A model generated the notes under the pieces. That model was not told where the DNA came from. It saw nothing but the letters and a program-made list of their open reading frames with translations, and made no database searches. Positions 37,481 to 59,652 of a DNA stretch of 64,000 nt are shown in pieces (positions within the stretch are counted from its first letter, which is position 1; each line of letters begins with the position of its first letter). A program made the translations under genes and the position numbers. The stretch comes from Acetobacter sicerae (GTDB lineage: Bacteria; Pseudomonadota; Alphaproteobacteria; Acetobacterales; Acetobacteraceae), in NCBI RefSeq assembly GCF_011516765.1, contig NZ_JAAABN010000007.1:62001-126000 (forward strand). The letters are read 5' to 3'.

Positions 37481-38914
37481 ATGTCCGGCCAACCCGACAG
37501 ATTCGCTGTCCTCTCCCCGAAGGAGATGGGTAGTGTTGACCATATTGCATCCCGCACCATTCCTGTGGCGACCCTGATGGAGAACGCCGGACGGGCTGTG
37601 GCGTGGGCCGTAAAATATTTTACGAAGCCCTGTCGCGTGCTGGTGCTGTGCGGTCCGGGTAACAACGGCGGAGATGGTTATGTCACGGCGCGTTACCTCG
37701 CCGAGATGGGGTGGCCTGTTGCTGTCGCCGCGCTGGTTGAACCGCGTGAGGGAAGTGACGCCGCAGCTGTTGCGGGGAGATTCCATGGTCCACGAGTGCC
37801 GTTCTCACCAGAAGAAGCCGCCAGGGTTGATCTGGTGATCGACGCAGTGTTCGGGGCTGGGCTCAGTCGTGATGTGCAGGAACCTGTTCCGTCCGTGCTG
37901 GCTGCCGCCAAACGCGTGGTCGCTATCGACATGCCCAGCGGCATTGATGGCGCAACCGGACAGGTGCGCGGATACGCTCGCGCCGCCGATCTGACCGTGA
38001 CGTTTTTCCGGGCAAAACCCGGTCACTTGGTGCTGCCGGGACGTGAGTATCTCGGGCAGTTCGAGGTGCGGGATATCGGGATTCCTGCTGAGGCACTGAA
38101 GGAAATCACCGTCACCACATGGCGGAATGAACCCGGTCTCTGGAAACTGCCCGTTCTGGAGCTTGAGGCTCATAAATATTCCCGTGGTGTCGTCAGTCTG
38201 TGCGCCGGTGAAGCGATGCCCGGCGCAGCCCGGCTGGCGGCGGCTTCGGCGCGTCGCACCGGTGCGGGTCTCGTCCGGATTGCGGCTGGGAAGGCGGCTC
38301 CTGCCTTTCGGCTGGGCGAGCCGGGACTCATTATCGACGAGGAGCCGCTGGCGGACCTGCTGAAAGATCATCGCCGTCGGACATGGATTTGCGGCCCGGG
38401 CCTCCTGCCGGAAGAGGTGGAGCAGGTTTTCCCGCAACTGGTTGCGGCGGAGCGGCAGATTCTCGCTGACGCGGGCGCCTTCTCATGGGCGGCAGACGCG
38501 CCGGATCGTCTGCGGGGCGCGGCAGTCCTGACGCCGCATGGGGGAGAATTTACCCGGGTCTTCGGTGCGCCGGGTGCTGACCCACTGGCGGCCGTGCGGG
38601 CTGCCGCCAAACGGGTGAACGCAGTGGTAGTCCTGAAGGGGGCGACGAGCGTGATCGCGTCACCAGACGGGAAGGTGGCGCTGAATACCCACGCGACCTC
38701 GGCGCTCGGAACGGCAGGTTCTGGCGATACGCTGACTGGTATCATCGGAGCCCTGCTGGCGGCTGGTATGGAGCCGTGGGATGCCGCATGCGCAGGTGTG
38801 TGGCTGCATGGGGAAGCGGCCTTGCAGGCCGGAAACTGGCTGGTTGCGGAAGATCTGGATCGGTATCTCGGGAAGGCAAGGGACAAGGCGACGCGGCTTC
38901 AGGAGGAGCCATGA
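37481..38914 (+). CDS. nnr: Bifunctional NAD(P)HX epimerase / dehydratase
   Basis: A 477-residue metabolite-repair enzyme. Residues ~1-215 are the YjeF epimerase domain (MENAGRAVAWAV, VLVLCGPGNNGGDGYVTARYLAE, IDMPSGIDGATGQ). Residues ~235-470 are the ADP/ATP-dependent dehydratase (WICGPGL, LTPHGGEFTRVFG, GTAGSGDTLTGIIGALLA). It restores NAD(P)H from its hydrated forms. The ATG at 37481 sits eight bases after GGAGG; the frame continuing upstream overlaps the divergent gene and is not coding. Confidence 0.94.
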   Translation: MSGQPDRFAVLSPKEMGSVDHIASRTIPVATLMENAGRAVAWAVKYFTKPCRVLVLCGPGNNGGDGYVTARYLAEMGWPVAVAALVEPREGSDAAAVAGRFHGPRVPFSPEEAARVDLVIDAVFGAGLSRDVQEPVPSVLAAAKRVVAIDMPSGIDGATGQVRGYARAADLTVTFFRAKPGHLVLPGREYLGQFEVRDIGIPAEALKEITVTTWRNEPGLWKLPVLELEAHKYSRGVVSLCAGEAMPGAARLAAASARRTGAGLVRIAAGKAAPAFRLGEPGLIIDEEPLADLLKDHRRRTWICGPGLLPEEVEQVFPQLVAAERQILADAGAFSWAADAPDRLRGAAVLTPHGGEFTRVFGAPGADPLAAVRAAAKRVNAVVVLKGATSVIASPDGKVALNTHATSALGTAGSGDTLTGIIGALLAAGMEPWDAACAGVWLHGEAALQAGNWLVAEDLDRYLGKARDKATRLQEEP

Positions 38915-39018
38915 AAGCTATGGCCGATGTTCTGTGTGACATTCAGGTGAAGTCACCCTGCGGAGACATCGGAAATCAGCTTAATTGCAGGATGCGTGTC
39001 GGAGTGACCTTGCCGTAA
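38911..39018 (+). CDS. Possible 35-residue small protein coupled to nnr
   Basis: A 35-codon frame starts at an ATG overlapping the nnr stop (ATGA) and is preceded by a strong AGGAGG site four bases away. The product has three Cys (VLCDI, SPCGD, LNCRM) and no recognised similarity. The ribosome site argues for translation. It could also be the 5' remnant of a lost downstream gene. Confidence 0.3.
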   Translation: MKAMADVLCDIQVKSPCGDIGNQLNCRMRVGVTLP

Positions 39019-39076
39019 GGTTGAGACTGCGGTAATCGGTGCGCCCTCGGCGTTATGGGTTGCGCTGATAGGCCAC

Positions 39077-39161
<85 letters not shown>

Positions 39162-39281
39162 GCCCTGTCACAACGGCAGAGGCTGGGTTTGCATCCCATG
39201 ATTATTCTGCCGGAAGAGTTTTGGCGGTCGGTGAAGATCGCTGTGTATTGAAGAGTTCGCACGAGAGGATGGCCTGGGCAT

Positions 39282-40613
39282 ATGCAGGTTACTGAGACGC
39301 TTTCCGAGGGCCTGAAGCACGCCTTCACCGTGGTCGTTCCGTCGGCCGAACTCGAGAAGAAGGAAGAGGCGCGCCTCAAGGAAGTCGGCGCGTCCGCCAA
39401 TCTTCCCGGTTTCCGTCCGGGTAAGGTGCCGCTGTCCGTTATCCGTCAGCGTTTCGGCGCATCCGTGAAGGGTGAAGTGCTGGAGCAGGCGGTGAACGAT
39501 GCGCTGCGTAACCTCTTTGAGGAGCGTAATCTGCGCCCGGCGCAGCAGCCCAAGGTTGATGTTGTTTCCGGTGGCGACGGCAAGGGTGATCTTGAGCTGA
39601 AGGTCGAGACGGAAGTTCTCCCTGAAATCAAGGAGCCTGACCTGTCCGACGTGTCTCTGGTGCGCCTGAAGGCGACGCCTGATGCGGCGACCGTGGACAA
39701 GGCTCTGAACGACATTGCGAAGCGTCAGCGCGATTTCGTGGTCGTTGAAGAGGATCGTCCGGCTGCTCAGGGTGACGCTCTGGTCGTCGATTTTGTTGGC
39801 AAGCGCGATGGCGTTCCCTTCGAAGGCGGCACGGCGGAAGACGTGAGCGTCGAGATCGGTGGCGAGGGTTTCATTCCCGGTTTCGCCGAGCAGCTCGAAG
39901 GCATGAAGCCGGGCGAAGAGAAGATCATCACGGTGACCTTCCCTGAGGAATACGGCGCGAAGGAACTGGCCGGTCAGGTCGCAACCTTCGACATCAAGGC
40001 AAAAGAGCTGAAGAAGCCGGTCGACGTTGAGGTCAATGACGAGCTCGCCAAGAAGATCGGTTTCGAAAATCTCGACAAGATTCGTGAAGTCATCACGAAG
40101 CAGGTTGAAGACGAGTACGAGCAGCTTTCCCGTCTGCGCCTGAAGCGTGACCTGCTGGACAAGCTGGCCGAGAAGACGGATTTCCCGGCTCCGGAAAGCA
40201 TGGTTGACGCAGAATTCGACCAGATCTGGGCGCGTGTTGAAGCTGATCGCAAGTCCGGCGAGTTGGACGAGGAAGATCAGGGCAAGGACGAAGACACGCT
40301 GAAGGCTGATTATCGCAAGATCGCCGAGCGTCGCGTGAAGCTTGGTCTGCTTCTTGCTGAAATCGGCCGTGCGAAGGGTATCACGGTCACGCAGGACGAG
40401 ATGGCGCGCGCCATTCGTGCGGAAGCCATGCGCTACCGTGGTCAGGAACAGGCTGTGTTCGACTTCTTCATGAAGAACCCGCAGGCTGCCGAGTCCCTTC
40501 GTGGTCCGATCTTCGAAAACAAGGTGATCGACTACATCACCGAGTTGGCGAAAGTTGAAGACAAGGATGTGACGCCGGAAGAACTGGCTGACATGCCAGC
40601 GGCCAACGTCTGA
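39282..40613 (+). CDS. tig: Trigger factor
   Basis: A 443-residue ribosome-associated chaperone and peptidyl-prolyl isomerase. The N-terminal ribosome-binding domain has the signature LPGFRPGKVPLSVIRQRFG. A central FKBP-type domain (~residues 160-245: GDALVVDFVGKRDGVPFEGG, FIPGFAEQLEGMKPGEEK) and a long helical C-terminal chaperone domain follow. The length is typical. It heads the conserved tig-clpP-clpX-lon order. Confidence 0.97.
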   Translation: MQVTETLSEGLKHAFTVVVPSAELEKKEEARLKEVGASANLPGFRPGKVPLSVIRQRFGASVKGEVLEQAVNDALRNLFEERNLRPAQQPKVDVVSGGDGKGDLELKVETEVLPEIKEPDLSDVSLVRLKATPDAATVDKALNDIAKRQRDFVVVEEDRPAAQGDALVVDFVGKRDGVPFEGGTAEDVSVEIGGEGFIPGFAEQLEGMKPGEEKIITVTFPEEYGAKELAGQVATFDIKAKELKKPVDVEVNDELAKKIGFENLDKIREVITKQVEDEYEQLSRLRLKRDLLDKLAEKTDFPAPESMVDAEFDQIWARVEADRKSGELDEEDQGKDEDTLKADYRKIAERRVKLGLLLAEIGRAKGITVTQDEMARAIRAEAMRYRGQEQAVFDFFMKNPQAAESLRGPIFENKVIDYITELAKVEDKDVTPEELADMPAANV

Positions 40614-46646: not shown

Positions 46647-47012
46647 ATGCCGTCGGTGATCAACGATTATCTGCCGGTTCTCATTTTCGGCATTCTCGCC
46701 GTGGTGATCGCAGGGGCCATGCTGGGCGCGTCTCTCGTGTGTGGGCACCAGAAGCCGTATGCGGAAAAACTGACAGCCTATGAGTGCGGTTTCGAAGCAT
46801 TCGACGATGCGCGCCGTCGTTTTGATGTCCGTTTCTATCTCGTTTCGATCCTGTTCATCATCTTCGATCTGGAAGTGGCCTTCCTGTTTCCGTGGGCGGT
46901 CAGCCTGTCGCGGATCGGTCTTTATGGCTTCCTGTCGATGATGGGATTCCTTGGCGTGCTGGGGATCGGGTTCCTTTATGAGTGGCGCAAGGGCGCGCTG
47001 GACTGGGATTGA
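46647..47012 (+). CDS. nuoA: NADH-quinone oxidoreductase subunit A
   Basis: A 121-residue membrane subunit of complex I with three hydrophobic helices. The conserved loop [26 protein letters not shown] and the second helix [16 protein letters not shown] are typical. The ATG at 46647 has GGAGG five bases upstream (an ATG at 46644 is too close). First gene of a 13-subunit operon. Confidence 0.96.
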
Positions 47013-47065
47013 TCTGTGATGCTGACGGACGTGGCTGTAACGGCAGTGAAGGTGGAGAACGCGCA

Positions 47066-47638
47066 ATGAGCGGTGATAATGCTGTGGGTTCGGACGCCAA
47101 TATCGTCTGGAACCGGGATGCGGTTCCGGCTGGACCGGAGCAGGACGCCATCGTCCGTGGCATCACGGGTGAGATCAGCGAGAAAGGCTTTGTCGTCGCC
47201 AGTCTCGACAAGCTCGTGAACTGGGGCAGGACCGGAAGCCTCTGGCCGATGACGTTCGGTCTGGCCTGCTGTGCTGTGGAAATGATCCACGCCTACATGC
47301 CGCGTTACGATCTTGACCGGATGGGCATCATTCCGCGTGGTTCGCCGCGTCAGTCCGACGTTATGATCGTCGCTGGAACGCTCACCAACAAGATGGCTCC
47401 GGCCCTGCGGCGCGTTTACGACCAGATGGCCGAGCCGCGCTGGGTGATCTCGATGGGCTCCTGCGCCAATGGCGGCGGCTACTACCATTATTCCTATTCG
47501 GTTGTCCGCGGCTGTGATCGCGTCGTGCCGGTTGACGTCTATGTGCCGGGCTGTCCGCCGACGGCCGAGGCGCTGATCTACGGCATCATGCTGCTCCAAA
47601 AGAAAATCCGTCGGACAGGGACGATTCTCCGTGGCTGA
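47066..47638 (+). CDS. nuoB: NADH-quinone oxidoreductase subunit B
   Basis: A 190-residue peripheral subunit carrying the terminal N2 4Fe-4S cluster. Ligands are the tandem Cys in [11 protein letters not shown], Cys in [12 protein letters not shown] and Cys in [12 protein letters not shown]. It passes electrons to quinone. The ATG at 47066 lies behind GGTGGAG; an upstream in-frame extension to 46982 overlaps nuoA and is not NuoB-like. Its stop overlaps the nuoC start. Confidence 0.97.
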
Positions 47639-48287
47639 TCAATCCACTGCACCCGTCGCCAGAGGTAATTCCTGCCTCTCCTTTCTGGCCTTCACGCTAT
47701 CAACGTCGTTACCGGGTATCTCTTCCGCCGCCATTGAAGGTGGGGAGCTTGTGGTGCGGGCGGATCGTGACCGTCTGATCCCGCTGATGATGCTTCTGCG
47801 TGATGATCCGCGGTTCCGGTTCGAGCAGCTCATGGACCTGTGCGGGGTTGATTTCCCTCAACGCGCCGAACGGTTCGATGTGGTCTACAATCTTCTGTCC
47901 GTGAGCCTGAACCATCGTGTCCGGGTGATCGTGACAACGGATGAACTGACCCCGGTGGAGTCCGTGCATCAGATCTGGCCCTGCGCCACATGGTGGGAGC
48001 GTGAGTGCTACGACATGTATGGCGTGCTGTTCTCGGGTCAGCCTGATCTTCGTCGTATTCTCAGTGATTACGGCTTTGAAGGACATCCGCTCCGCAAGGA
48101 TTTCCCGCTGACCGGTTACACTGAGGTTCGCTACGATCCGGAGCGTCGTCAGATTGTGCGTGAGCCGGTCACACTGACGCAGGATTTCCGTGACTTTGAT
48201 TTCGTGTCTCCCTGGGAAGGCGTGCTGACGCTGCCGGGTGACGAGCGGGCGCATGAACTGCGTCAGATCATGAAAAAGATACAGTAA
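47631..48287 (+). CDS. nuoC: NADH-quinone oxidoreductase subunit C
   Basis: A 218-residue 30-kDa-type subunit, not fused to NuoD. The signature [29 protein letters not shown] and the following [18 protein letters not shown] are intact. It starts at GTG 47631, eight bases inside nuoB, indicating coupled translation. It forms part of the connecting module. Confidence 0.96.
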
Positions 48288-48300
48288 CAGGAGCCGGAGC

Positions 48301-49593
48301 ATGACAGAGGCCCTGAAACAGGACGAAAACCTTCTCGGTCTGCATGACAGTCTTGGTGAAGGTCCGCTGCCTGAGACCCTGCTGTCGGAGCCGGTAGCAG
48401 AGGAGGAAGTGGAGCGTCGGACGGTCGAGATCGACAGCCATGCGCTGAATTTCGGCCCCCAGCATCCATCAGCGCATGGCGTTCTGCGTCTTGTGCTGGA
48501 GATGGAAGGCGAGGTTGTCGCGCGTGCCGTGCCGCATATCGGGCTGCTGCATCGCGGTACGGAAAAGCTGATCGAATACAAGACCTATCCCAAGGCGCTG
48601 CCGTATTTTGACCGGCTCGATTACGCTTCTCCGATGTGCGAGGAGCACGCTTTCGCGCTGGCCACCGAGAAGCTTCTGGGTATCGAAGCGCCGGATCGCG
48701 CCAAGTGGATCCGTGTGATCTTCGCGGAAATCACCCGCATCCTGAACCATATCCTCAACCTCACAGCGATGGGGCTCGACTGCGGTGCGGTGACGCCTGC
48801 GCTCTGGGGCTATGAAGAGCGCGAAAAGCTGCTTGAGTTTCATGAGGCTGTTTCCGGCGCACGTTTCCATGCCAACTATTTCCGCCCCGGTGGTGTCGCA
48901 CGCGACATGCCGGCCGGCATGGAAGAGAAAATCGCAGCGTGGGCCGAAGAATTCCCCGCATGGATTGATGATCTCGAAAGTCTGCTGACGGAAAACCGCA
49001 TCTGGAAGCAGCGGACTGTAGGTATCGGCGTGTTCACCAGCGAGCAGGCTTTGGCATGGGGCTGGAGCGGGCCCTGCCTGCGTGGCTCCGGCGTGCCGTG
49101 GGATCTGCGTCGTTCCCAGCCGTATGACAATTACGACAAGGTCGATTTCGAAATTCCCGTGGCGCGGCATGGCGATTGTTATGATCGCTATCTCGTTCGC
49201 GTGGCCGAAATGCGCGAGAGCGTGAAGATCATCAAGCAGAGTCTGGCGCAGATCAAACCTGGCGCGATCAAGGTGCAGGACCCCAAGTTTTCACCGCCGC
49301 CGCGTGCCGAGATGAAGCGGTCGATGGAAGCCCTGATCCATCACTTCAAACTGTTTACCGAGAGTTATCATGTGCCGCCGGGCGCGACCTACACGGCGGT
49401 CGAAACGCCGAAGGGTGAATTCGGTGTCTATCTCGTGGCTGACGGAAGCAATCGTCCGTATCGCTGCAAGATCAGACCGACCGGTTTCGCGCATCTGCAG
49501 GCGATTGATGAACTCTCTCGACGAGGCATGCTGGCTGATGCCGTGGCGATCATCGGCTCGCTGGATCTCGTCTTTGGTGAGGTGGACCGATGA
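48301..49593 (+). CDS. nuoD: NADH-quinone oxidoreductase subunit D
   Basis: A 430-residue 49-kDa-type subunit lining the quinone site. After a variable ~45-residue N-terminus comes [18 protein letters not shown] (with the quinone-site His), [13 protein letters not shown] and the C-terminal DLVFGEVDR. Start ATG 48301 follows GGAG. Its stop overlaps nuoE (ATGA at 49590-49593). Confidence 0.97.
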
Positions 49594-50219
49594 GCACTGT
49601 CACAAACGTGCAGCCTGATCACTTCGAATTTGATGAGATCAGCGAAGGCGAAATCGCAACGATCCTCGCCAAGTATCCGCCCGAGCGGAAGGCGAGCGGG
49701 GCTCTGCCGCTGCTCTACGTCGCGCAGAACCAGATGAAACGGCAGACCGGCAGCGCCTGGGTGCCGACCGTGGCGATGGACGCCGTGGCCCGGAAGCTGG
49801 AAGTCGCGCCGATCCGTATCTACGAGGTCGCGACCTTCTACTTCATGTTCAACACGAAGCCGATCGGGAAGTATCACCTTCAGGTCTGCACGACAACATC
49901 CTGCTGGCTGCGAGGATCGGACGATGTGCTGTCAGCCTGCAAGAAGGCGACCGGCATTCATAACATCGGTGAGACCAGCGAAGACGGGCTGTTCACGCTG
50001 AGCGAAGTCGAGTGCCTTGGGGCCTGCTCCAATGCGCCAATTCTTCAGGTGGATAACGATTTTTTCGAGGATCTCGATGGTCCCCGCACGGAAACGCTGA
50101 TCGAGGCGCTGAAGCGCGGCGAATATCCGGAGCCGGGTCCGACCAACGGGCGTCATGGCGCGGAGCCGGAGGGCGGCCGCCGGGTGCTGCTCGAAGAGAC
50201 CGGTTCCGGTCAGGGTTGA
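49590..50219 (+). CDS. nuoE: NADH-quinone oxidoreductase subunit E
   Basis: A 209-residue thioredoxin-fold subunit with one 2Fe-2S cluster. Ligand pattern [11 protein letters not shown] … [15 protein letters not shown] is visible. It belongs to the NADH-dehydrogenase module with NuoF and NuoG. A ~30-residue Gly/Glu-rich tail extends past the core. Confidence 0.96.
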
Positions 50220-50234
50220 GGGAGATCTGCGACA

Positions 50235-51569
50235 ATGCTGAGCGATAAGGACCGGATCTACACCAACCTGTATGGCCAGAATGACTGGCGACTGGCTGGG
50301 GCCCGCGCCCGTGGTGACTGGAACGATACGAAAGCGATCACCGACAAAGGCCGCGACTGGATCGTCAACGAGATGAAGGCGTCCGCCCTGCGTGGGCGTG
50401 GTGGGGCAGGCTTCCCGACCGGTGTGAAGTGGTCCTTCATGCCGAAAGGTGATGGACCCGCGCCACGCTATCTTGTCATCAACGGCGATGAGTCCGAGCC
50501 GGGCACCTGCAAGGATCGCGAGATCCTGCGTCACGAGCCGCACAAGCTGATCGAGAGCGCTCTGATCGCCTCCTTCGCGATGGGGGCGCACGCGTCCTAC
50601 ATCTATGTGCGCGGCGAGTTCTACAACGAAGCGCGCCATCTCCAGATCGCCATTGATGAAGCGTATGAAGCCGGACTGCTCGGCAAGAACGCTGCGGGCA
50701 CAGGCTGGGATTTCGATTTCTATCTGCATCGCGGCGCAGGCGCTTATATCTGCGGTGAGGAAACGGCTCTGCTCGAAAGCCTCGAAGGCAAGAAGGGCCA
50801 GCCGCGTATGAAGCCGCCGTTCCCGGCTGGCGCGGGTCTGTATGGCTGCCCGACGACGGTGAACAATGTCGAGTCTATTGCCTCGGCTTCCACGATCCTG
50901 CGTCGTGGTGCGGCGTGGTTCTCCGGTCTCGGTCGTCCGAACAATGCGGGCACCAAGTTGATGGCCATTTCCGGTCATGTGAATACGCCGTGCGTGTTCG
51001 AGGAAGAACTCGGCGTGCCGATGAAGGAAATCATCGAGAAGCATGGCGGCGGCGTGCGCGGCGGATGGGACAATCTGCTGGCGGTCATTCCGGGCGGCTG
51101 CTCGGTGCCGCTGCTGCCGAAAGACATCTGCGAGACGGTGCTGATGGACTATGACAGCCTGAGGGCGGAGCGATCCGGTCTCGGCACGGGCTGCATGATC
51201 GTGATGGACAAATCCACCGACATCATCAAGGCGATCGCCCGGTTCTCGCAGTTCTTCAAACATGAAAGCTGCGGCCAGTGCACGCCCTGTCGTGAAGGCA
51301 CCGGCTGGATGATGCGCGTCATGAACCGCATGGTCGAAGGACGCGCCGAAATCGAGGAAATCGACATGCTGGAGCAGGTCACCCGGCAGGTCGAGGGTCA
51401 CACGATCTGCGCGCTCGGCGATGCGGCGGCATGGCCCATTCAGGGACTGATCCGGCATTTCCGTCCGCTCATGGAAGAGCGCATCCGTGACTACAAGCGG
51501 CGGCATGGCGGCTCCCAGCAGGTGCAGGTGCCTGCGGGCACGCCTGTTGCAGCGATTGCGGCGGAGTAA
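50235..51569 (+). CDS. nuoF: NADH-quinone oxidoreductase subunit F
   Basis: A 444-residue subunit binding NADH and FMN and holding the N3 4Fe-4S cluster. It shows [17 protein letters not shown] (NADH site), [19 protein letters not shown] (FMN site) and [16 protein letters not shown] (cluster). Starts at ATG 50235, 15 bases after nuoE. Confidence 0.97.
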
Positions 51570-51574
51570 GGCTG

Positions 51575-53611
51575 ATGGTCAGAGTCATTGTTGACGGCAC
51601 ACCGGTCGATGTCGCTCCCGGTTCCTCCGCGCTTCAGGCGTGCGAGGCGGCGGGCAAGGAAATTCCGCGTTTCTGCTATCATGAGCGCCTGTCGGTCGCG
51701 GGTAACTGCCGCATGTGCCTCGTTGAGGTCGCACGGGCCCCGAAACCGGTCGCCTCGTGTGGCTTCCCTGTAAACGAGGGCATGCAGATCTTCACGGACA
51801 CGGAAACGGTCCGCAAGGCGCGCCGGGCGGTGATGGAGTTCCTGCTTATCAACCATCCGCTCGACTGTCCGATCTGCGATCAGGGCGGCGAGTGCGATCT
51901 ACAGGATCAGGCGTACGGCTACGGTAGCGGTATTTCCCGCTATCATGAGGAAAAGCGGGCGGTCACCGACAAAAATCTCGGTCCGCTGGTGAAAACCGTG
52001 ATGACACGCTGCATCCAGTGCACGCGTTGTGTCCGTTTCAGTGCGGAAGTGGCGGGTACGCCGGAACTGGGTGGCATTTCGCGTGGTGAGAACCTTGAGA
52101 TCACCACCTATGTCGAGAAGGCGTTGACGTCGGAACTGTCCGGCAACCTGATCGACATCTGTCCGGTCGGCGCTCTGACTTCCAAGCCATCCGCCTTTCA
52201 GGCCCGTCCGTGGGAACTGCGGAAGACCGACGCCATCGACGTGATGGATGCGGTCGGCACCAACATCCAGATTCAGGCGCGTGGCGGCGAGGTGAAACGC
52301 ATTGTTCCCCGCGTGAATGACGAGGTGAACGAGGAATGGCTGTCCGACAAGGGCCGTTTCTCTGTCGATGGTCTGAAGCGTCGTCGTCTCGATCGTCCGT
52401 GGGTGCGCGTGCACGGCAAGCTGCACCCGGCGAGTTGGCAGGATGCTTTCGTCGCCATCGCCAAACGGCTTGAGGGCGTGCAGGGCAGCCGGATCGGCGC
52501 GATTGTCGGCGACCTGTGCGACGCCGAGAGCATCATGGCGCTGCGTGACCTGATGTGGTCACTGGGTTCGCTGAACCTCGACTGCCGTCAGGATGGCGCG
52601 AAATACGATCTGTCGGATCGTTCGCGTTATACATTCGTAAGCGGCATTGTTGGCATTGACGAGGCGGACGCGATCCTTGTGGTCGGGGCCAACCCGCGTC
52701 TGGATGCGCCGGTTCTGAACGCCCGCATCCGCAAGCGCTATCTGTCACTGGGACGTGGCGGTCTGCCGATCGGTGTCATTGGCACGCTGTCGTCCGATCC
52801 GACATGGGCTTACGAGGATCTGGGCAGCAATCCGGTCTCGGTGAACGGTCTGCTGAGCGGCAATGTCGAATTTGTCGAAAAGCTTAAAGCCGCCAAGAAA
52901 CCGATGATCATCGTCGGGCAGGAGGCGCTGACCCGTGAAGATTCCGGCGCCATTCTGAAAGCCTGTCGCGCTCTGGCGGAATCGGTTGGCGCGCTGACGG
53001 ACGGGTGGAACGGTCTGAACATCCTGCACACGGCGGCGTCGCGTGTTGCGGCGCTCGATCTCGGCTTTGTGCCACGCAACGGGGGACGCAGTCTGCGCGG
53101 AATGCTGAGCAGCGGCGTCGATGTGTTGTGGCTTCTGGGCGCGGACGAGTTCTCCGTGAACGCCATCAGCCCGGAAACCTTCGTGATCTATCAGGGCCAT
53201 CATGGTGATGCGGGCGCGGCCCGTGCCGACGTGATCCTGCCGGGTTCGGCCTACACCGAGAAATCAGGCACATGGGTGAACACCGAAGGTCGTATCCAGC
53301 GCAGCTTTCAGGCCGTCTTTCCACCGGGCGAGGCGAAGGAAGACTGGAAAATCATCCGCGCCGCGTCAGAAGTTCTTGGCGCGAAGCTGCCTTACGACAC
53401 GATCGAAGCGTTGCGTGAGCGACTTCAACTCGGCGTGTCCTCGGCAGCAGGAGAAACGGCGGAAGAGCCCGGCGTCGACACCATCCAGGCCAAACCGCTT
53501 CTGGCGTCCTCCCGGAGTTATTACCTGACAAACCCGATCAGCCGGTCCAGTCCGACCATGGTCGAGTGCGCGGAAGTCTACGCGCCGAGTGTGGCTGTAG
53601 CGGCGGAGTAG
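51575..53611 (+). CDS. nuoG: NADH-quinone oxidoreductase subunit G
   Basis: A 678-residue iron-sulfur subunit. The N-terminal 2Fe-2S ferredoxin domain has [18 protein letters not shown], followed by the His/Cys cluster [17 protein letters not shown] and [10 protein letters not shown] … [13 protein letters not shown]. The remaining ~430 residues are a molybdopterin-oxidoreductase-like domain without catalytic role. Length is normal for alphaproteobacterial NuoG. It is five bases from nuoF and four from nuoH. Confidence 0.97.
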
Positions 53612-53615
53612 GAAC

Positions 53616-54638
53616 GTGGCTGACTTTTTCTTCCATACGCTTGCCGGCCAGCTCATCCTCATGGTGCTGGAAACTCTGGCGGTTCTCGTGCCGCTGCTGA
53701 TCGGCGTGGCTTACCTGACGCTCATGGAGCGCAAGGTGATGGCGGCGATGCAGTTGCGTCGTGGTCCGAACGTGAACGGCATTTTCGGTCTGCTTCAGGC
53801 TTTCGCCGACGCGATCAAGATGATCACCAAGGAAACGATCATCCCCGCCGGGGCCAACCGCTTCCTGTTCCTGTTCGCGCCGTTTCTGACGTTCTCGCTG
53901 GCCATGACGGCCTGGGCGGTCATCCCGACGGGCAACGGGCTGGCGGTCGCCAACATCAATGTCGGCATTCTCTACCTGCTGGCGATTTCCTCGCTCGGTG
54001 TTTACGGCATGCTCATCGCGGGCTGGGCGTCGAACTCCAAATACGCCTTTCTCGGCAGTCTTCGGTCCGCCGCGCAGATGGTGTCCTACGAAGTCTCCAT
54101 CGGTCTGGTGATCGTCTCCGTACTGCTCGCGGTCGGGAGTCTGAACCTCAACGATATCGTGCTGGCGCAGCGTCATGTCTGGTTCTGCGTGCCGATGTTC
54201 CCGATGTTCATCCTGTTCTTCATCTCGGCGCTGGCCGAGACGAACCGCGCGCCATTCGATCTTCCCGAAGGCGAGAGCGAGCTGGTGGCGGGCTTCTTCG
54301 TCGAATATTCCTCGCTCTCCTTCGGCCTCTTCTTCCTTGGCGAATATGCCAACATGATCCTCATGTCCGGCATGGTCAGCATCCTGTTCCTTGGTGGCTG
54401 GCTGCCGCCGCTCGGCATCGCGCCGCTGACATGGATTCCGGGGCCGCTCTGGCTGATCGCCAAGATCCTGTTCTGTCTTTTCGTCTTTATCTGGACCCGT
54501 GCAACGTTCCCCCGTTTCCGTTATGACCAGCTCATGCGCCTTGGCTGGAAAGTGTTCCTGCCATTCTCGCTGCTCTGGATGATCGCGACCGCCGGGTTCC
54601 TGCTTGCAACGGGTCTTCTGCCGCAGGGAGTAAGCTGA
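53616..54638 (+). CDS. nuoH: NADH-quinone oxidoreductase subunit H
   Basis: A 340-residue membrane subunit with about eight helices forming the quinone tunnel. [20 protein letters not shown] and the loop [20 protein letters not shown] are hallmarks. Start is GTG 53616. The stop overlaps nuoI by one base (A of ATG at 54638). Confidence 0.97.
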
Positions 54639-55126
54639 TGGCTGGCATGGATCGTGCGCTGAAGGCTTTTCTGCTTACTGAAATCGTCTCCGGCATGGCC
54701 GCGACATTCAGGACGATGTTCAAGCCGAAAGTCACCATCAACTACCCTTATGAAAAGGGACCGCTTTCTCCGCGTTTCCGTGGTGAGCACGCGCTGCGCC
54801 GCTACCCGAATGGCGAGGAACGCTGCATCGCCTGCAAACTGTGCGAGGCGACCTGCCCGGCGGAGGCGATCGTCATCGAGGCCGAGCCGCGTGACGACGG
54901 CTCCCGCCGCACCACGCGCTACGACATCGACATGACGAAGTGCATCTATTGCGGCCTGTGCGAGGAAGCCTGTCCGGTGGACGCCATCGTCGAGGGACCG
55001 AACTACGAGTTCGCCACGGAGACCCGTGAAGAGCTCATGTACAACAAGGAAAAGCTGCTCTCGAACGGCGACCGCTGGGAGAGCGTGCTGGCACGGAGGC
55101 TCGAGCTTGATGCGCCTTATCGCTGA
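54638..55126 (+). CDS. nuoI: NADH-quinone oxidoreductase subunit I
   Basis: A 162-residue ferredoxin-like subunit carrying two 4Fe-4S clusters (N6a/b): [16 protein letters not shown] and [16 protein letters not shown]. Preceded by [18 protein letters not shown]. It bridges NuoG and NuoB. A 60-base gap follows before nuoJ. Confidence 0.97.
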
Positions 55127-55186
55127 TCGGCCCCACGCTATGTCTGTCGCCGTGTCCGCCGCCTGTCGCAGGGGAGGCTGTGTCTG

Positions 55187-55912
55187 ATGGTCCAGCTCGT
55201 CTTTTATGTGTTCGCCACCATTCTGGTCGGCTCAGCCGCCATGGTGATCAGCGCACGCAATCCGGTCCATTCGGTTCTGTTCCTGATCCTTGCGTTCTTC
55301 AACGCGGCGGGTCTGTTTCTGGTTGCCGGGGCCGAGTTCCTCGCGATGATCCTGGTGATCGTCTATGTCGGCGCGGTCGCCGTGCTGTTCCTGTTCGTGG
55401 TGATGATGCTCGACATCGACTTCACCAAAATGCGGGAAGGCTTGCAGCGTTACGCGCCCATCGGCGGCGTTGTCGGCTGCATCCTGTTCGTCGAACTGGT
55501 GATGGCGGGCCTGCACTGGGGCATGTCCCCGGTCATGCCTGCGCCAATTACGGGCGGCCTCGGCCAGCCCGGAGGCGCTGCGACCAACACCGGCGCGCTC
55601 GGCAACCTGATCTACACGCACTACATCCTGCTGTTCCAGCTTTGCGGTCTCGTGCTGCTCGTCGCCATGATCGGCGCGATCACCCTGACCCTGCGTGACC
55701 GCCCGATGGGCCGTCGTCAGATCATCTCCCGCCAGCATGAGCGCAAGCGCGCCGACACGCTGGAGATGATGAACCTGCCGCTGGGGCAGGGCACGGATGC
55801 CAACGGCGGTTTCATCCGCCCCAACGATTCCTATTACGTGACAGCCGTTCCGGGCTCTTACGGAGTCCCTGCCGCCGAAAAACGCGAGCCGGGTGAAGGA
55901 GACGCAGAATGA
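55187..55912 (+). CDS. nuoJ: NADH-quinone oxidoreductase subunit J
   Basis: A 241-residue membrane subunit with about five helices ([32 protein letters not shown] region). The family is usually ~170-205 residues; the extra length is a hydrophilic C-terminal tail (~60 residues) ending [11 protein letters not shown]. Start ATG 55187 behind GGGGAGG. Stop overlaps nuoK by four bases. Confidence 0.95.
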
Positions 55913-56232
55913 ACACGGCAATCGCCCAGATCGGGCTCGGTCCCTACCTGACGGTCAGCGCGGCGCTGCTGGTGCTCGGCGTGTTCGGCATCTTCCTCAA
56001 CCGGAAGAACATCATCATCATCATGATGTCGATGGAGTTGATCCTGCTGGCCGCCAACCTCAATCTGGTGGCGTTTTCCTCCGTGCTGGGCGATCTCTCG
56101 GGGCAGGTGCTGACGCTGTTCGTCCTGACCATCGCGGCCGCTGAAGCCGCGATCGGGCTGGCCATCCTCACTGTCTATTTCCGCAACCGTGGCTCGATTC
56201 AGGTCGAGGACGTTGCGACGATGAAGGGCTGA
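55909..56232 (+). CDS. nuoK: NADH-quinone oxidoreductase subunit K
   Basis: A 107-residue subunit with three helices, MrpC-like. Segments [27 protein letters not shown] and [22 protein letters not shown] hold the conserved membrane glutamates. Short spacing to nuoL (5 bases). Confidence 0.97.
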
Positions 56233-56237
56233 GCACC

Positions 56238-58181
56238 ATGCAGGCAGCACTCATCCTCTTTTCGGTCGCGACACTGGCGCCGCTGTGCGGTTCGGCTATC
56301 GCGGGACTGTTCGGACGTCGCATCGGTGACGGCGCGGCGCAGGCCGTGACGGTCCTGTGCATGCTCATCGCCACGGTATGCAGCTATGGCGCGCTGCTCG
56401 GCGGCATGGTCGGCGGCGGGATGCCCAGCGTGGCCCTGCTGGCGCACTGGGTTGACGCCGGTTCCTTCCATGTGAACTGGGCGCTTCGGTTCGATACGCT
56501 GTCCGCCACCATGGTGGCGATGGTGCTGACCGTCTCAACGCTCGTGCACATCTACAGCATCGGCTACATGTCGCATGAGACGATGCCGCGTTACCGGTTC
56601 TTCTCCTATCTTTCGCTGTTCACCTTCGCCATGCTGATGTTGGTCACGTCCAACGACCTGATCCAGCTTTTCTTCGGCTGGGAAGGCGTCGGTCTCGCGA
56701 GTTACCTGCTGATCGGCTACTGGTATCAGAAGCCGAGCGCCTGCGCCGCCGCGATCAAGGCTTTCGTGGTCAACCGCATTGCCGACCTGTTCTTCCTCGT
56801 CGGTATCGGCCTGATCTTCGTGGTGTTCGGTACGGTTCAGTATGACGACATCTTCGCCACGGTCCCGGATCACGTCCAGACGGGTTATTACCTGTTCGGT
56901 TCGACCCATTCCGTGCTTGAGGTGATCGCCACGCTGCTGTTCATCGGCGCGATGGGCAAGTCGGCTCAGCTGTTCCTGCACACCTGGCTGCCGGACGCGA
57001 TGGAAGGCCCGACGCCTGTGTCAGCGCTGATCCACGCCGCCACCATGGTCACGGCGGGTGTCTTCCTGATGGCGCGCATGTCGCCGCTGGTCGAGTTCGC
57101 GCCTGACACACGGATCTTCATCGTGCTGATCGGTGCCACGACCTGCTTCTTCGCGGCGACGGTCGGTCTGGTGCAGCCAGACATCAAGCGCACGATCGCC
57201 TATTCCACCTGCTCGCAGCTTGGCTACATGTTCATGGCCATCGGTGTGGGAGCTTATCAGGCGGCGGTCTTCCATCTGACGACCCACGCTTTCTTCAAGG
57301 CGATGCTGTTCCTTGGCGCAGGCTGCGTGATTCACGCCATGCACGACGAGCAGGACATGTTCCGCATGGGCGGCCTGTGGAAGAAAATTCCGGTGACCTA
57401 CGCCATGATGTGGATCGGCAGTCTGGCGCTGGCGGGCGTGTTCCCCTTCGCCGGTTACTGGTCGAAGGACGCCATCCTGAATGCGGCATGGGTTTCCCAT
57501 TCCGGCATGGGCACCTATGGCTGGATCCTCGGCACGGTCACGGCGTTCATTACGGCGCTGTATAGCTGGCGTCTGATCTTTCTCGTGTTCCACGGCAAGC
57601 CGCGTGACCAGCATGCGTTCGATCATGCGCATGAAAGCCCGGCCGTCATGCTGGGTCCGGTGCTGATCCTGTCGGTCGGCGCACTGATCGCCGGTGCGGT
57701 TCTGGCTCCGTTCTATATCGGCGGCAAGCAGGAAGGGTTCTGGGGAGGCGCGATTTTCAATGCGCCGGGCAACACGGTCATGGCCTCGCTTGAGGATGTT
57801 CCGACGCTGATCGGTCTGATGCCGAGCATTGTCGGTCTGCTGGGCATTGCTCTGGCTTATGTCCTCTATGTCGCCAGGCCGGAACTGCCGGAGCAGATCG
57901 CCACGTCCTTCCGCCCGGTTTACCAGTTCCTGCTCAACAAATGGTATTTCGACGAACTGTATGACGTGATCTTCGTGAAGCCCTACCGCGCCATTGCCCG
58001 CGCCCTGTGGCACGGCGTGGACGAGGGGGTGATCGAGAAGATCCCCGTCGGTCTTGCCGAGGCGACGCGCGGCACGGCGGTCTCCGCCACGCGCACGCAG
58101 ACCGGGTCCATCGCGATCTATGCGTTCACCATGCTTGTTGGTCTGGTCGTGTTCGTCACCACCGTGGTGTTTTTCCAATGA
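56238..58181 (+). CDS. nuoL: NADH-quinone oxidoreductase subunit L
   Basis: A 647-residue antiporter-like proton-pumping subunit, identified as L and not M by HVNWALRFDTLSATMV, LFFGWEGVGLASYLLIGYWY, HTWLPDAMEGPTPVSALIHAATMVTAG, TTHAFFKAMLFLGAG and the long C-terminal lateral helix region beginning LNKWYFDELYD. Its stop is overlapped by the ATG of a 17-codon frame where nuoM should begin. Confidence 0.97.
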   Translation: MQAALILFSVATLAPLCGSAIAGLFGRRIGDGAAQAVTVLCMLIATVCSYGALLGGMVGGGMPSVALLAHWVDAGSFHVNWALRFDTLSATMVAMVLTVSTLVHIYSIGYMSHETMPRYRFFSYLSLFTFAMLMLVTSNDLIQLFFGWEGVGLASYLLIGYWYQKPSACAAAIKAFVVNRIADLFFLVGIGLIFVVFGTVQYDDIFATVPDHVQTGYYLFGSTHSVLEVIATLLFIGAMGKSAQLFLHTWLPDAMEGPTPVSALIHAATMVTAGVFLMARMSPLVEFAPDTRIFIVLIGATTCFFAATVGLVQPDIKRTIAYSTCSQLGYMFMAIGVGAYQAAVFHLTTHAFFKAMLFLGAGCVIHAMHDEQDMFRMGGLWKKIPVTYAMMWIGSLALAGVFPFAGYWSKDAILNAAWVSHSGMGTYGWILGTVTAFITALYSWRLIFLVFHGKPRDQHAFDHAHESPAVMLGPVLILSVGALIAGAVLAPFYIGGKQEGFWGGAIFNAPGNTVMASLEDVPTLIGLMPSIVGLLGIALAYVLYVARPELPEQIATSFRPVYQFLLNKWYFDELYDVIFVKPYRAIARALWHGVDEGVIEKIPVGLAEATRGTAVSATRTQTGSIAIYAFTMLVGLVVFVTTVVFFQ

Positions 58182-58231
58182 GCGGTTTTTCTGAAATCCT
58201 GCACGTCATCGCCGGGGAGAATGGACGATGA
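58178..58231 (+). pseudogene. 17-codon frame in the nuoM position (apparent nuoM remnant)
   Basis: Between nuoL and nuoN there are only 46 bases. A frame encoding MSGFSEILHVIAGENGR starts at an ATGA overlap with nuoL and stops at an ATGA overlap with nuoN, each the normal coupling arrangement for nuoL-nuoM and nuoM-nuoN. GGGGAG upstream of nuoN would lie in its end. This fits an in-frame internal deletion of ~1.4-1.5 kb of nuoM. Homology of these 17 residues to NuoM ends is not shown; the interpretation is inference. Confidence 0.55.
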
Positions 58232-59652
58232 ACTGGATACTTGCGTTGCCGGAAATCGTTCTGGCGGTCAGCGGTCTTCTTATCCTCTCGGTGGGTGTGC
58301 TCACGAAGAAGGGTCATGCCTTCCTGCCGTCAGCGACGCTGAGCATCGCGGCCTTCGTGGTGACCGGTTTTCTGGTGGCTCTCTCGCCGGGTGGCGTGGG
58401 GTATGACGGACTGTTCGTGGTCGATGCGTTCGCCCGCTTCATCAAGCTGCTGGCCATTGTCGGTGGCGTGGTCGCGATTGCGCTGTCGGTCGGTTACACT
58501 AACGAGCACCGCGAACTGCCGTTCGAGATGCCCATTCTCGTCCTGTTCTCCACGCTTGGCGCGATGGTCATGGCGTCGTCCACCAACCTGATGACGCTGT
58601 TCGTCGGACTGGAACTCTCCTCGCTGGCGATCTACGTGCTGTGCGCTCTGGAGAGGGATCGTCTGGGGTCTGCTGAAGCCGGACTGAAATACTTCATCCT
58701 CGGTTCGCTGGCGTCCGGCCTGCTGCTGTATGGCGTGTCGCTGGTCTACGGTTACGCAGGCACGATGGAGTATGCTCCCATCGCCGCCGAGATCAATAGC
58801 GCCGGTATTCTGCCGATCGGCCTTGTCATTGGCATGGTGTTCGTCATCGTCGGACTGGCGTTCAAGCTGTCCGCCGTGCCGTTCCACATGTGGACGCCGG
58901 ATGTCTATCAGGGCGCGCCGACACCGGTGACGGCCTACATGGCTGGTGCGCCGAAGTTCGCGGCTTTCGCCCTGATCCTGCGTGTGATGGCGGGACCGTT
59001 CGGCGCCATGTCGCCACGCTGGCAGCTGCTGATCGAGGTGATCGCGGCGCTGTCCATGCTGTTCGGTTCCTTCGCCGCTATTCCGCAGCGCAACATCAAG
59101 CGCCTGATGGCTTATTCCTCGATCGGCCATATGGGTTACGCGATGATGGGTCTTGCTGCTGCTTCGCCCGCAGGGACGACCGGCACGCTGGTCTATCTCA
59201 CGACCTATCTGATCATGAATGCGGGTACGTTCGGCGTGATCACCGCCATGCGTCGGCAGGGACGTGAGGTCACGGAAATCTCCGACATCGCAGGGCTTGG
59301 CCGCACCAATCCGGGACTGGCTCTGGTGCTGGCGATCTGCATGTTCAGCATGATCGGCGTGCCGCCGCTGGCCGGGTTCTTCGGCAAGTTCATGGTGTTC
59401 GCAGCAGCCTGGAATGCTGGCCTGTATCCGCTGATCGCTGTGGGCGTGGTGTCGGCCATCGTTGGCGCGTTCTATTACCTGCGTATCGTTAAGGTGGCCT
59501 ATTTCGATCCAGCGGCTCCGGCCTTCGATCGTCCTGCTCCGTCCGTTTCGTTCGTGTCCATTGCAATGGGGCTGGCGACAGTCCTGTTCCTGATTGGTCT
59601 GGGTCCGATCAGCGAGGCTGCGCAGGCTGCGGCGCAGGCGCTCATTGGCTGA
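58228..59652 (+). CDS. nuoN: NADH-quinone oxidoreductase subunit N
   Basis: A 474-residue antiporter-like subunit, clearly N rather than M: YFILGSLASGLLLYGVSLVYG, FKLSAVPFHMWTPDVYQGAPTPVTAYMAG and NIKRLMAYSSIGHMGYAMMGLA. It has about fourteen hydrophobic segments. It is translationally coupled to the 17-codon frame before it and is followed by birA at a TTG overlapping its end. Confidence 0.96.
   Translation: MNWILALPEIVLAVSGLLILSVGVLTKKGHAFLPSATLSIAAFVVTGFLVALSPGGVGYDGLFVVDAFARFIKLLAIVGGVVAIALSVGYTNEHRELPFEMPILVLFSTLGAMVMASSTNLMTLFVGLELSSLAIYVLCALERDRLGSAEAGLKYFILGSLASGLLLYGVSLVYGYAGTMEYAPIAAEINSAGILPIGLVIGMVFVIVGLAFKLSAVPFHMWTPDVYQGAPTPVTAYMAGAPKFAAFALILRVMAGPFGAMSPRWQLLIEVIAALSMLFGSFAAIPQRNIKRLMAYSSIGHMGYAMMGLAAASPAGTTGTLVYLTTYLIMNAGTFGVITAMRRQGREVTEISDIAGLGRTNPGLALVLAICMFSMIGVPPLAGFFGKFMVFAAAWNAGLYPLIAVGVVSAIVGAFYYLRIVKVAYFDPAAPAFDRPAPSVSFVSIAMGLATVLFLIGLGPISEAAQAAAQALIG

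Follow-up and report, generated by a model that had tools for sequence, protein, structure and literature searches.

The nuo operon in the window, by which we mean the whole analysed stretch of 64,000 nucleotides from Acetobacter sicerae, comprises nuoA to nuoL and nuoN but no nuoM, and an intact, divergent NuoM is encoded at another site of this genome. Forty genomes belonging to 11 genera share this arrangement, and the separate NuoM is more changed than NuoL and NuoN. Our overall reading of these data, which we hold with a probability of roughly 0.8, is that the alphaproteobacterial complex I is complete with nuoM at a second locus, that a paralogue replaced the operon copy, and that the short frame located between nuoL and nuoN in Acetobacter serves as a relay.

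Results

The nuo operon of the window lacks nuoM

The 13 nuo products encoded in the window (NuoA to NuoL and NuoN; Table 1) each match NCBIfam models of their own subunit. Twelve of them score above at least one NCBIfam cut-off, and NuoA matches with an E-value of 2.6e-30, below its curated cut-offs. In line with an earlier note on this DNA, NuoL and NuoN are thus each clearly of their own type, as judged by the model matches. Moreover, neither the open reading frames nor the NCBIfam models reveal a nuoM between nuoL and nuoN of the window, confirming that the operon consists of 13 genes and lacks this one. The note had likewise described a short frame coupled at both ends in its place, which is what we observe. 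The last gene ahead of where nuoM would be expected is nuoL; its TGA stop codon (58179-58181) shares an ATGA with the ATG start codon of the short frame, and a second ATGA joins the short frame to the start of nuoN. The frame reads ATGAGCGGT...GGACGATGA (17 codons plus stop) and harbors the likely ribosome-binding site of nuoN, GGGGAG, as identified by eye.

Table 1. Positions of the nuo genes and of the short frame within the window.
Feature	Position	Strand	Remarks
nuoA to nuoK	46647..56232	+	11 genes in the usual order; open reading frames and NCBIfam matches
nuoL	56238..58181	+	647 aa; TIGR01974, 800 bits (cut-off 407.5)
17-codon minicistron, peptide MSGFSEILHVIAGENGR	58178..58231	+	ATGA-coupled to nuoL and to nuoN
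nuoN	58228..59652	+	474 aa, directly after the short frame; NF004440, 581.9 bits (cut-off 519)

An intact nuoM is located on another contig

From the missing gene the earlier note had deduced a complex I without NuoM that would pump fewer protons or need a replacement, and it had named a complete nuoM elsewhere in the genome as the first result that would refute this view. The genome search for a NuoM homologue yielded exactly this result. The genome (4.03 Mb, 93 contigs) encodes six PF00361 proteins, namely NuoL and NuoN of the window, three proteins of a second complex I operon on contig C15, and one protein that stands alone on contig C3. The PF00361 match of the latter covers positions 39006-39860 of contig C3, and the NuoM query of the family search matches positions 38748-40316. 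The C3 protein passes the cut-off of the NDH_I_M subfamily (TIGR01972, 540.8 bits versus 263.8) and remains just below the nearest equivalog cut-off (NF004499, 573 versus 585 bits), where the scored query carried a lead of 61 residues ahead of the likely GTG start. Its best sequence match in the PDB, over the full length, is chain M of 8QBY (8qby_M, E 1e-131). Since a complete NuoM is encoded in the genome, complex I need not pump fewer protons.

The start codon of the C3 gene is likely a GTG (VHPIILTLVTYLPLL), because species differ in the frame upstream of it but agree in the GTG and the residues that follow; the resulting protein comprises about 503 residues. Just upstream of the gene, mlaC is followed by a terminator-like hairpin and a T run, detected by eye, and this sequence feature suggests that the C3 nuoM probably has its own promoter.

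The second complex I operon (G000:C15:12550-16855, L008) has its own L, M and N, and all three proteins were matched. It probably belongs to the type that others described as horizontally acquired in Asaia and Gluconacetobacter. For Asaia, an excerpt of PMC4596401 reports one nuo operon that is widespread in acetic acid bacteria and another that was probably transferred, based on nuoHIJKLN and not on nuoM. For Gluconacetobacter diazotrophicus, an excerpt of PMC9368920 lists nuoM within a nuoA-nuoN set with a fused nuoCD, and the fusion suggests that this set represents the second operon.

Some of the genomes with a separate NuoM, the window's included, also possess a second L, M, N set, and the C3 protein might consequently serve the second (E-type-like) complex I, or a separate antiporter, instead of the window's operon. 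However, we consider this very improbable in view of three observations. The second operon contains an M of its own, which is 36% identical to the C3 protein. Moreover, the best NuoM and NuoN matches of 17 family genomes are of the second type only (NuoM E 1e-68 to 1e-87), with no separate-type NuoM among the matches listed. Finally, a second NuoN is present in only 12 of 49 Acetobacter genomes.

Spread of the arrangement in the family

The family sample consisted of 299 genomes searched with NuoM and with NuoN, of which 276 and 277, respectively, gave matches. Ranked by genome, the top 40 NuoM matches (E 2.4e-181 or lower), representing 11 genera, are of the separate type, and the nuoL-nuoN junction is devoid of nuoM in all 40 genomes. 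The flanks of nuoM, which were read in 37 of the 40 and in a 38th (G132) via a named record with the same coordinates (L174), contain neither nuoL nor nuoN. Comparison of positions in G122 and G219 places nuoM and the nuo junction 450 kb apart or on different contigs. As controls, we inspected ten other picked junctions of the family, G100 among them, and all ten show L, M and N in order. Outside the family, nuoN lies downstream of nuoM at each of the 28 best class-level loci and nuoL upstream at 27 of them. A scan of named genomes returned 57 loci, 39 of which are from Acetobacter, and nuoL or nuoN is present in the flanks of none of these 39 (flanks of up to 7 kb; in L139, L141 and L150 one of the two flanks is shorter than 1 kb).

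A collapse of the assembly at the junction was ruled out as well, given that the junction without nuoM recurs throughout the 40 genomes from 11 genera, several of which are assembled in one to four contigs.

In one Acetobacter genome that is 99% complete (G426), the separate NuoM (G426:C63:12516-13370, L291) is the only PF00361 protein, and NuoL, NuoN and NuoG were not found in this genome. It contains either an orphan nuoM after recent loss of the operon, which breaks the pairing of the separate M with the operon, or an assembly gap into which the operon fell. As an observation apart, nuoN matches in three consecutive pieces at G438:C214:26028-27447, which is probably due to frameshifts in a low-quality assembly or to decay of the gene.

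Genomic place of the separate nuoM

The gene mutL is located just upstream of nuoM on the same strand in 17 of 23 compared neighbourhoods, which cover all 11 genera. In A. pasteurianus (G242), domain matches indicate the order ileS, lspA, a DUF3035 gene, mutL, nuoM, an EamA transporter gene and a gyrase-B-type gene. Some of the gene names in this neighbourhood are presumed, and we take the gyrase-B-type gene to be parE. Because mutL adjoins nuoM across all 11 genera, the mutL site is probably the older one and thus probably the first separate site. In the Acetobacter subgroup of the window, nuoM adjoins mlaC instead of mutL (the mlaA-mlaC site). This holds for the window's own genome, G295, A. 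conturbans, A. fallax, A. musti, A. oeni, A. estunensis, A. sacchari, A. nitrogenifigens and a few others. In genomes with the mlaC site, mutL and parE are found on different contigs (the window's genome and G117) or 1.7 Mb apart (G295). In this subgroup nuoM would therefore seem to have moved again, from the mutL site to mlaC.

A conserved box, GCTCGGCGGAACGTGA, is situated about 80-90 nt before nuoM (L139:6931-6946 and eight other Acetobacter loci) and is common to species with nuoM at the mutL site and to those with nuoM at the mlaC site. The possibility that the box is the end of mutL was ruled out, because the box is located in the gap downstream of mutL, the product of which terminates with FGRR (once FSRR). 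The box is a possible candidate for a regulatory or promoter element. Since this upstream element is shared across both sites, nuoM probably moved together with its control region. In the window, a search for the box with at most three mismatches gave two matches versus 1.30 expected, which corresponds to chance level, and hence did not reveal an element shared with nuoA.

Divergence and expression of the separate NuoM

The residues E144, K234, H241, K265, H322, H348 and E407 (E. coli numbering), which we take to be the key residues of the proton path, are kept in all of 77 separate NuoM sequences, a set in which some species are counted twice. The separate protein shares these seven residues and the full length with operonic NuoM (TIGR01972; PDB 8QBY chain M; E. 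coli 3RKO). It differs from the latter in being encoded outside the operon and in that many otherwise invariant positions are mostly altered: a comparison of 38 operonic NuoM gives 131 invariant positions, of which all 77 separate sequences retain 68, whereas 29 are kept in fewer than half. Changes beside key residues include F143Y (by E144), L264S (by K265) and S352I (near H348), and several of them also occur in the separate copy of the genus g100 (see below).

The three antiporter-like subunits were compared by their mean tree distance to other alphaproteobacteria, divided by that of the family members with an operonic nuoM. This ratio amounts to 2.24 for NuoM, 1.38 for NuoN and 1.11 for NuoL, calculated from 19, 10 and 14 rows, respectively. 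Together with the substitutions, the ratios fit a paralogue that changed fast before taking over.

Published proteomics of A. pasteurianus, of which we refer to an excerpt (PMC10742644), provides ratios for NuoM (HN.1610) of 0.62, 0.33, 2.16 and 1.78 in four comparisons. In the same four comparisons, the ratios range from 0.29-0.51, 0.09-0.51, 1.96-3.56 and 1.70-3.16 for the operon subunits B-I (HN.3342-3350), and are 0.93, 0.31, 2.22 and 2.12 for NuoN (HN.3354). The HN numbering in this part of the table leaves room for only J, K and L between NuoI and NuoN. As far as this excerpt goes, the separate NuoM is therefore made and broadly follows the operon (HN.3342-3354). We presume that the separate NuoM is assembled into complex I with NuoL and NuoN, a point on which the published proteomics bears through co-regulation.

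Origin of the separate NuoM

The genus g100, represented by three genomes (G100, G157 and G200; 2.7 Mb and one contig each), harbors an operonic as well as a separate nuoM, and in G100 (loci L079 and L107) both NuoM copies have all seven key residues. All separate NuoM form one clade together with the separate copy of g100, with a support of 100 in trees of 88 and of 62 rows. In the 62-row tree, which omits nine rows including betaproteobacterial, E-type and some divergent alphaproteobacterial NuoM, 25 alphaproteobacterial NuoM from outside the family are split with a support of 100/100 from the separate clade plus the operonic NuoM of the family. The 88-row tree agrees on the branch that parts the NuoM from outside the family from those within it (98).

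The long stem of the separate clade and the changes at 29 of 131 otherwise invariant positions could also point to a horizontal transfer from outside the family that replaced the native gene, and an AU test of the separate clade inside versus beside the operonic NuoM of the family does not separate the two placements (p 0.533). However, both trees position the separate clade on the family's side of the branch mentioned above, and we regard a transfer of this kind as unlikely.

Given that the lineage is unusually diverged and that g100 contains both copies, we conclude that a paralogue probably replaced the operon nuoM. In the course of events that we envisage, an extra nuoM copy would have arisen, diverged and finally replaced the operon copy, which would then have been deleted, and g100 would represent the state in which both copies are still present.

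The position of g100 was further assessed in a Lon tree of 42 genomes, which relies on one protein and contains several long branches. There, g100 falls among the genera with an operonic nuoM and is not the sister of the acetic acid bacteria. In terms of this position, its separate copy could represent an old transfer rather than a shared duplicate. With the root placed on the operon-M side by assumption, the genomes that have only the second operon and those that lack complex I nest among the genera with a separate nuoM.

The short frame between nuoL and nuoN

The nuoL-nuoN gap measures 37-148 nt in Acetobacter and -1 to 35 nt in the other ten genera. We defined a coupled frame as one of at least 10 codons, and examined 43 distinct Acetobacter junctions obtained from 47 of 49 genomes. 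In 41 of these, the stop of a coupled frame 14-51 codons long overlaps a potential start codon of nuoN. In the two exceptions (L274 and L289) the frame stops just before nuoN or runs into nuoN, as seen by eye. In the ten other genera, no coupled frame was found at any of 26 distinct junctions (from 32), the gaps of which could hardly hold one. A first reading from the family sample, according to which the frame is limited to the window and its closest relative, was dropped after the genus-wide search.

The earlier note had interpreted the frame as what an in-frame deletion leaves of nuoM, in a complex I truly lacking this subunit. The frame does occupy the position expected of nuoM, with its start at the nuoL stop and its end at the nuoN start, and in ten relatives with an operonic nuoM, nuoN overlaps the nuoM stop by 1 nt in four and by 4 nt in two cases. 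Nevertheless, this interpretation is scarcely tenable. The loss itself is refuted by the intact NuoM encoded elsewhere in the genome. Furthermore, the frame is confined to Acetobacter (0 of 26 distinct junctions elsewhere) although the junction without nuoM is common to all 11 genera, and its length varies from 14 to 51 codons. When the ends of NuoM in relatives were compared by eye, the 17 residues of the window's frame resembled neither end of the operonic protein (which starts, e.g., with MNAAGFPLLSL). A direct descent of the frame from nuoM is thus not supported.

It is possible, though on balance doubtful, that the short frame is open merely by chance and that only the ribosome-binding site of nuoN matters in the spacer. 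Shuffled spacers in which both ends are kept still give a coupled frame with a mean probability of 0.41. The peptide is not conserved across subgroups, and the shared part (ERSA, GENGR) encodes the likely nuoN ribosome-binding site. On the other hand, the same shuffles, treating related species as independent trials, predict 17.8 coupled frames as opposed to the 41 of 43 observed. In 11 Acetobacter genomes of the window's subgroup, the gap of 46 nt, the 17 codons and the double ATGA overlap are identical. Six of the genomes with a 46-nt gap were compared pairwise: over 40 spacer sites, the divergence is 28-70% in 14 of the 15 pairs and 3% in the remaining one, yet the length, the open frame and both ATGA overlaps remain constant despite this drift. 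Likewise, the last nuoL codon varies (CAA, CGA or AAA) but keeps the final A that makes the ATG. The remaining Acetobacter frames in part also start on the nuoL stop and otherwise 3-13 nt after it, and in several of those without an overlap a purine-rich site was noticed by eye at the nuoL stop.

We therefore favor, as the best reading, that the short frame functions as a translational relay from nuoL to nuoN. According to an excerpt of PMC10666635, coupling was almost lost in six gene pairs of E. coli and Haloferax when about 20 nt separated the genes, for which reason a frame that spans 37-148 nt is best explained in this manner. The nuoL-nuoN gap of Acetobacter may have grown too long for direct coupling, and the short frame may have been kept to bridge it. 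Ribosomes that terminate at the end of nuoL would reinitiate on the minicistron, terminate again at the nuoN start and from there translate nuoN. The amino acid sequence of the relay peptide is apparently unimportant. Two observations argue against the relay as a strict need. The ten other genera, with gaps of -1 to 35 nt, manage without it, so that coupling cannot be strictly required, and 2 of the 43 Acetobacter junctions miss the exact overlap.

In three related Acetobacter genomes (L261-L263), a 51-codon frame that is coupled on either side and resembles its counterparts in the other two genomes fills a gap of 148 nt. This frame could encode a real small protein.

The proposed relay is reminiscent of mgtQ, a short ORF between mgtC and mgtB of Salmonella that, according to an excerpt of PMC8092293, is likewise a small intergenic ORF promoting translation of the next gene. 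In contrast to mgtQ, which in this account acts via stem-loops and ribosome-destabilising residues, the peptide of the Acetobacter frame is not conserved and the frame overlaps the next start.

Discussion

For A. pasteurianus SKU1108, an excerpt of PMC5158111 lists a nuoA-nuoN operon of 13 locus tags and a separate nuoM, APT_00690, which is the same arrangement as in the window's genome. The excerpt devotes one line of a gene list to nuoM and contains nothing on its origin, its spread or the nuoL-nuoN junction. The bare fact of a separate nuoM is thus partly known. Several nuo genes are dispersed in Rickettsia, where a complex I gene is likewise found away from the operon; in R. tamurae (L184) nuoM follows nuoL, and no nuoN was found within 7 kb downstream of it. 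The present case differs from Rickettsia in that only one gene has moved out of the operon, which is otherwise intact, in 11 genera of the family of the acetic acid bacteria. In open-licence PMC full text, we found no description of the frame at the nuoL-nuoN junction or of a clade-wide relocation of nuoM. Within the literature searched, the spread of the relocation, the genus g100 with its two copies and the genus-wide bridging frame appear to be new.

A more far-reaching scenario, which we put forward tentatively and at less than even odds, combines these elements: in the acetic acid bacteria a divergent paralogue with rebuilt surroundings of the channel, encoded at another locus, would have replaced NuoM, the central proton-pumping subunit of complex I, and Acetobacter would then have evolved a translational relay, independent of sequence, in the form of a minicistron that serves solely to take ribosomes over the gap and keeps NuoL and NuoN in step.

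With regard to annotation, the absence of nuoM from a nuo operon does not indicate a reduced pump. The substitutions next to the proton path offer a lead on the extent to which this path can vary. Moreover, the arrangement represents a natural experiment on two questions. One is whether a large membrane complex depends for its stoichiometry on having all of its genes in a single operon; the other is whether a short frame can be retained solely for passing ribosomes along to the following gene. Both can be addressed in g100, with its two NuoM copies, and in Acetobacter, with its putative relays of 14 to 51 codons, and acetic acid bacteria can be cultured.
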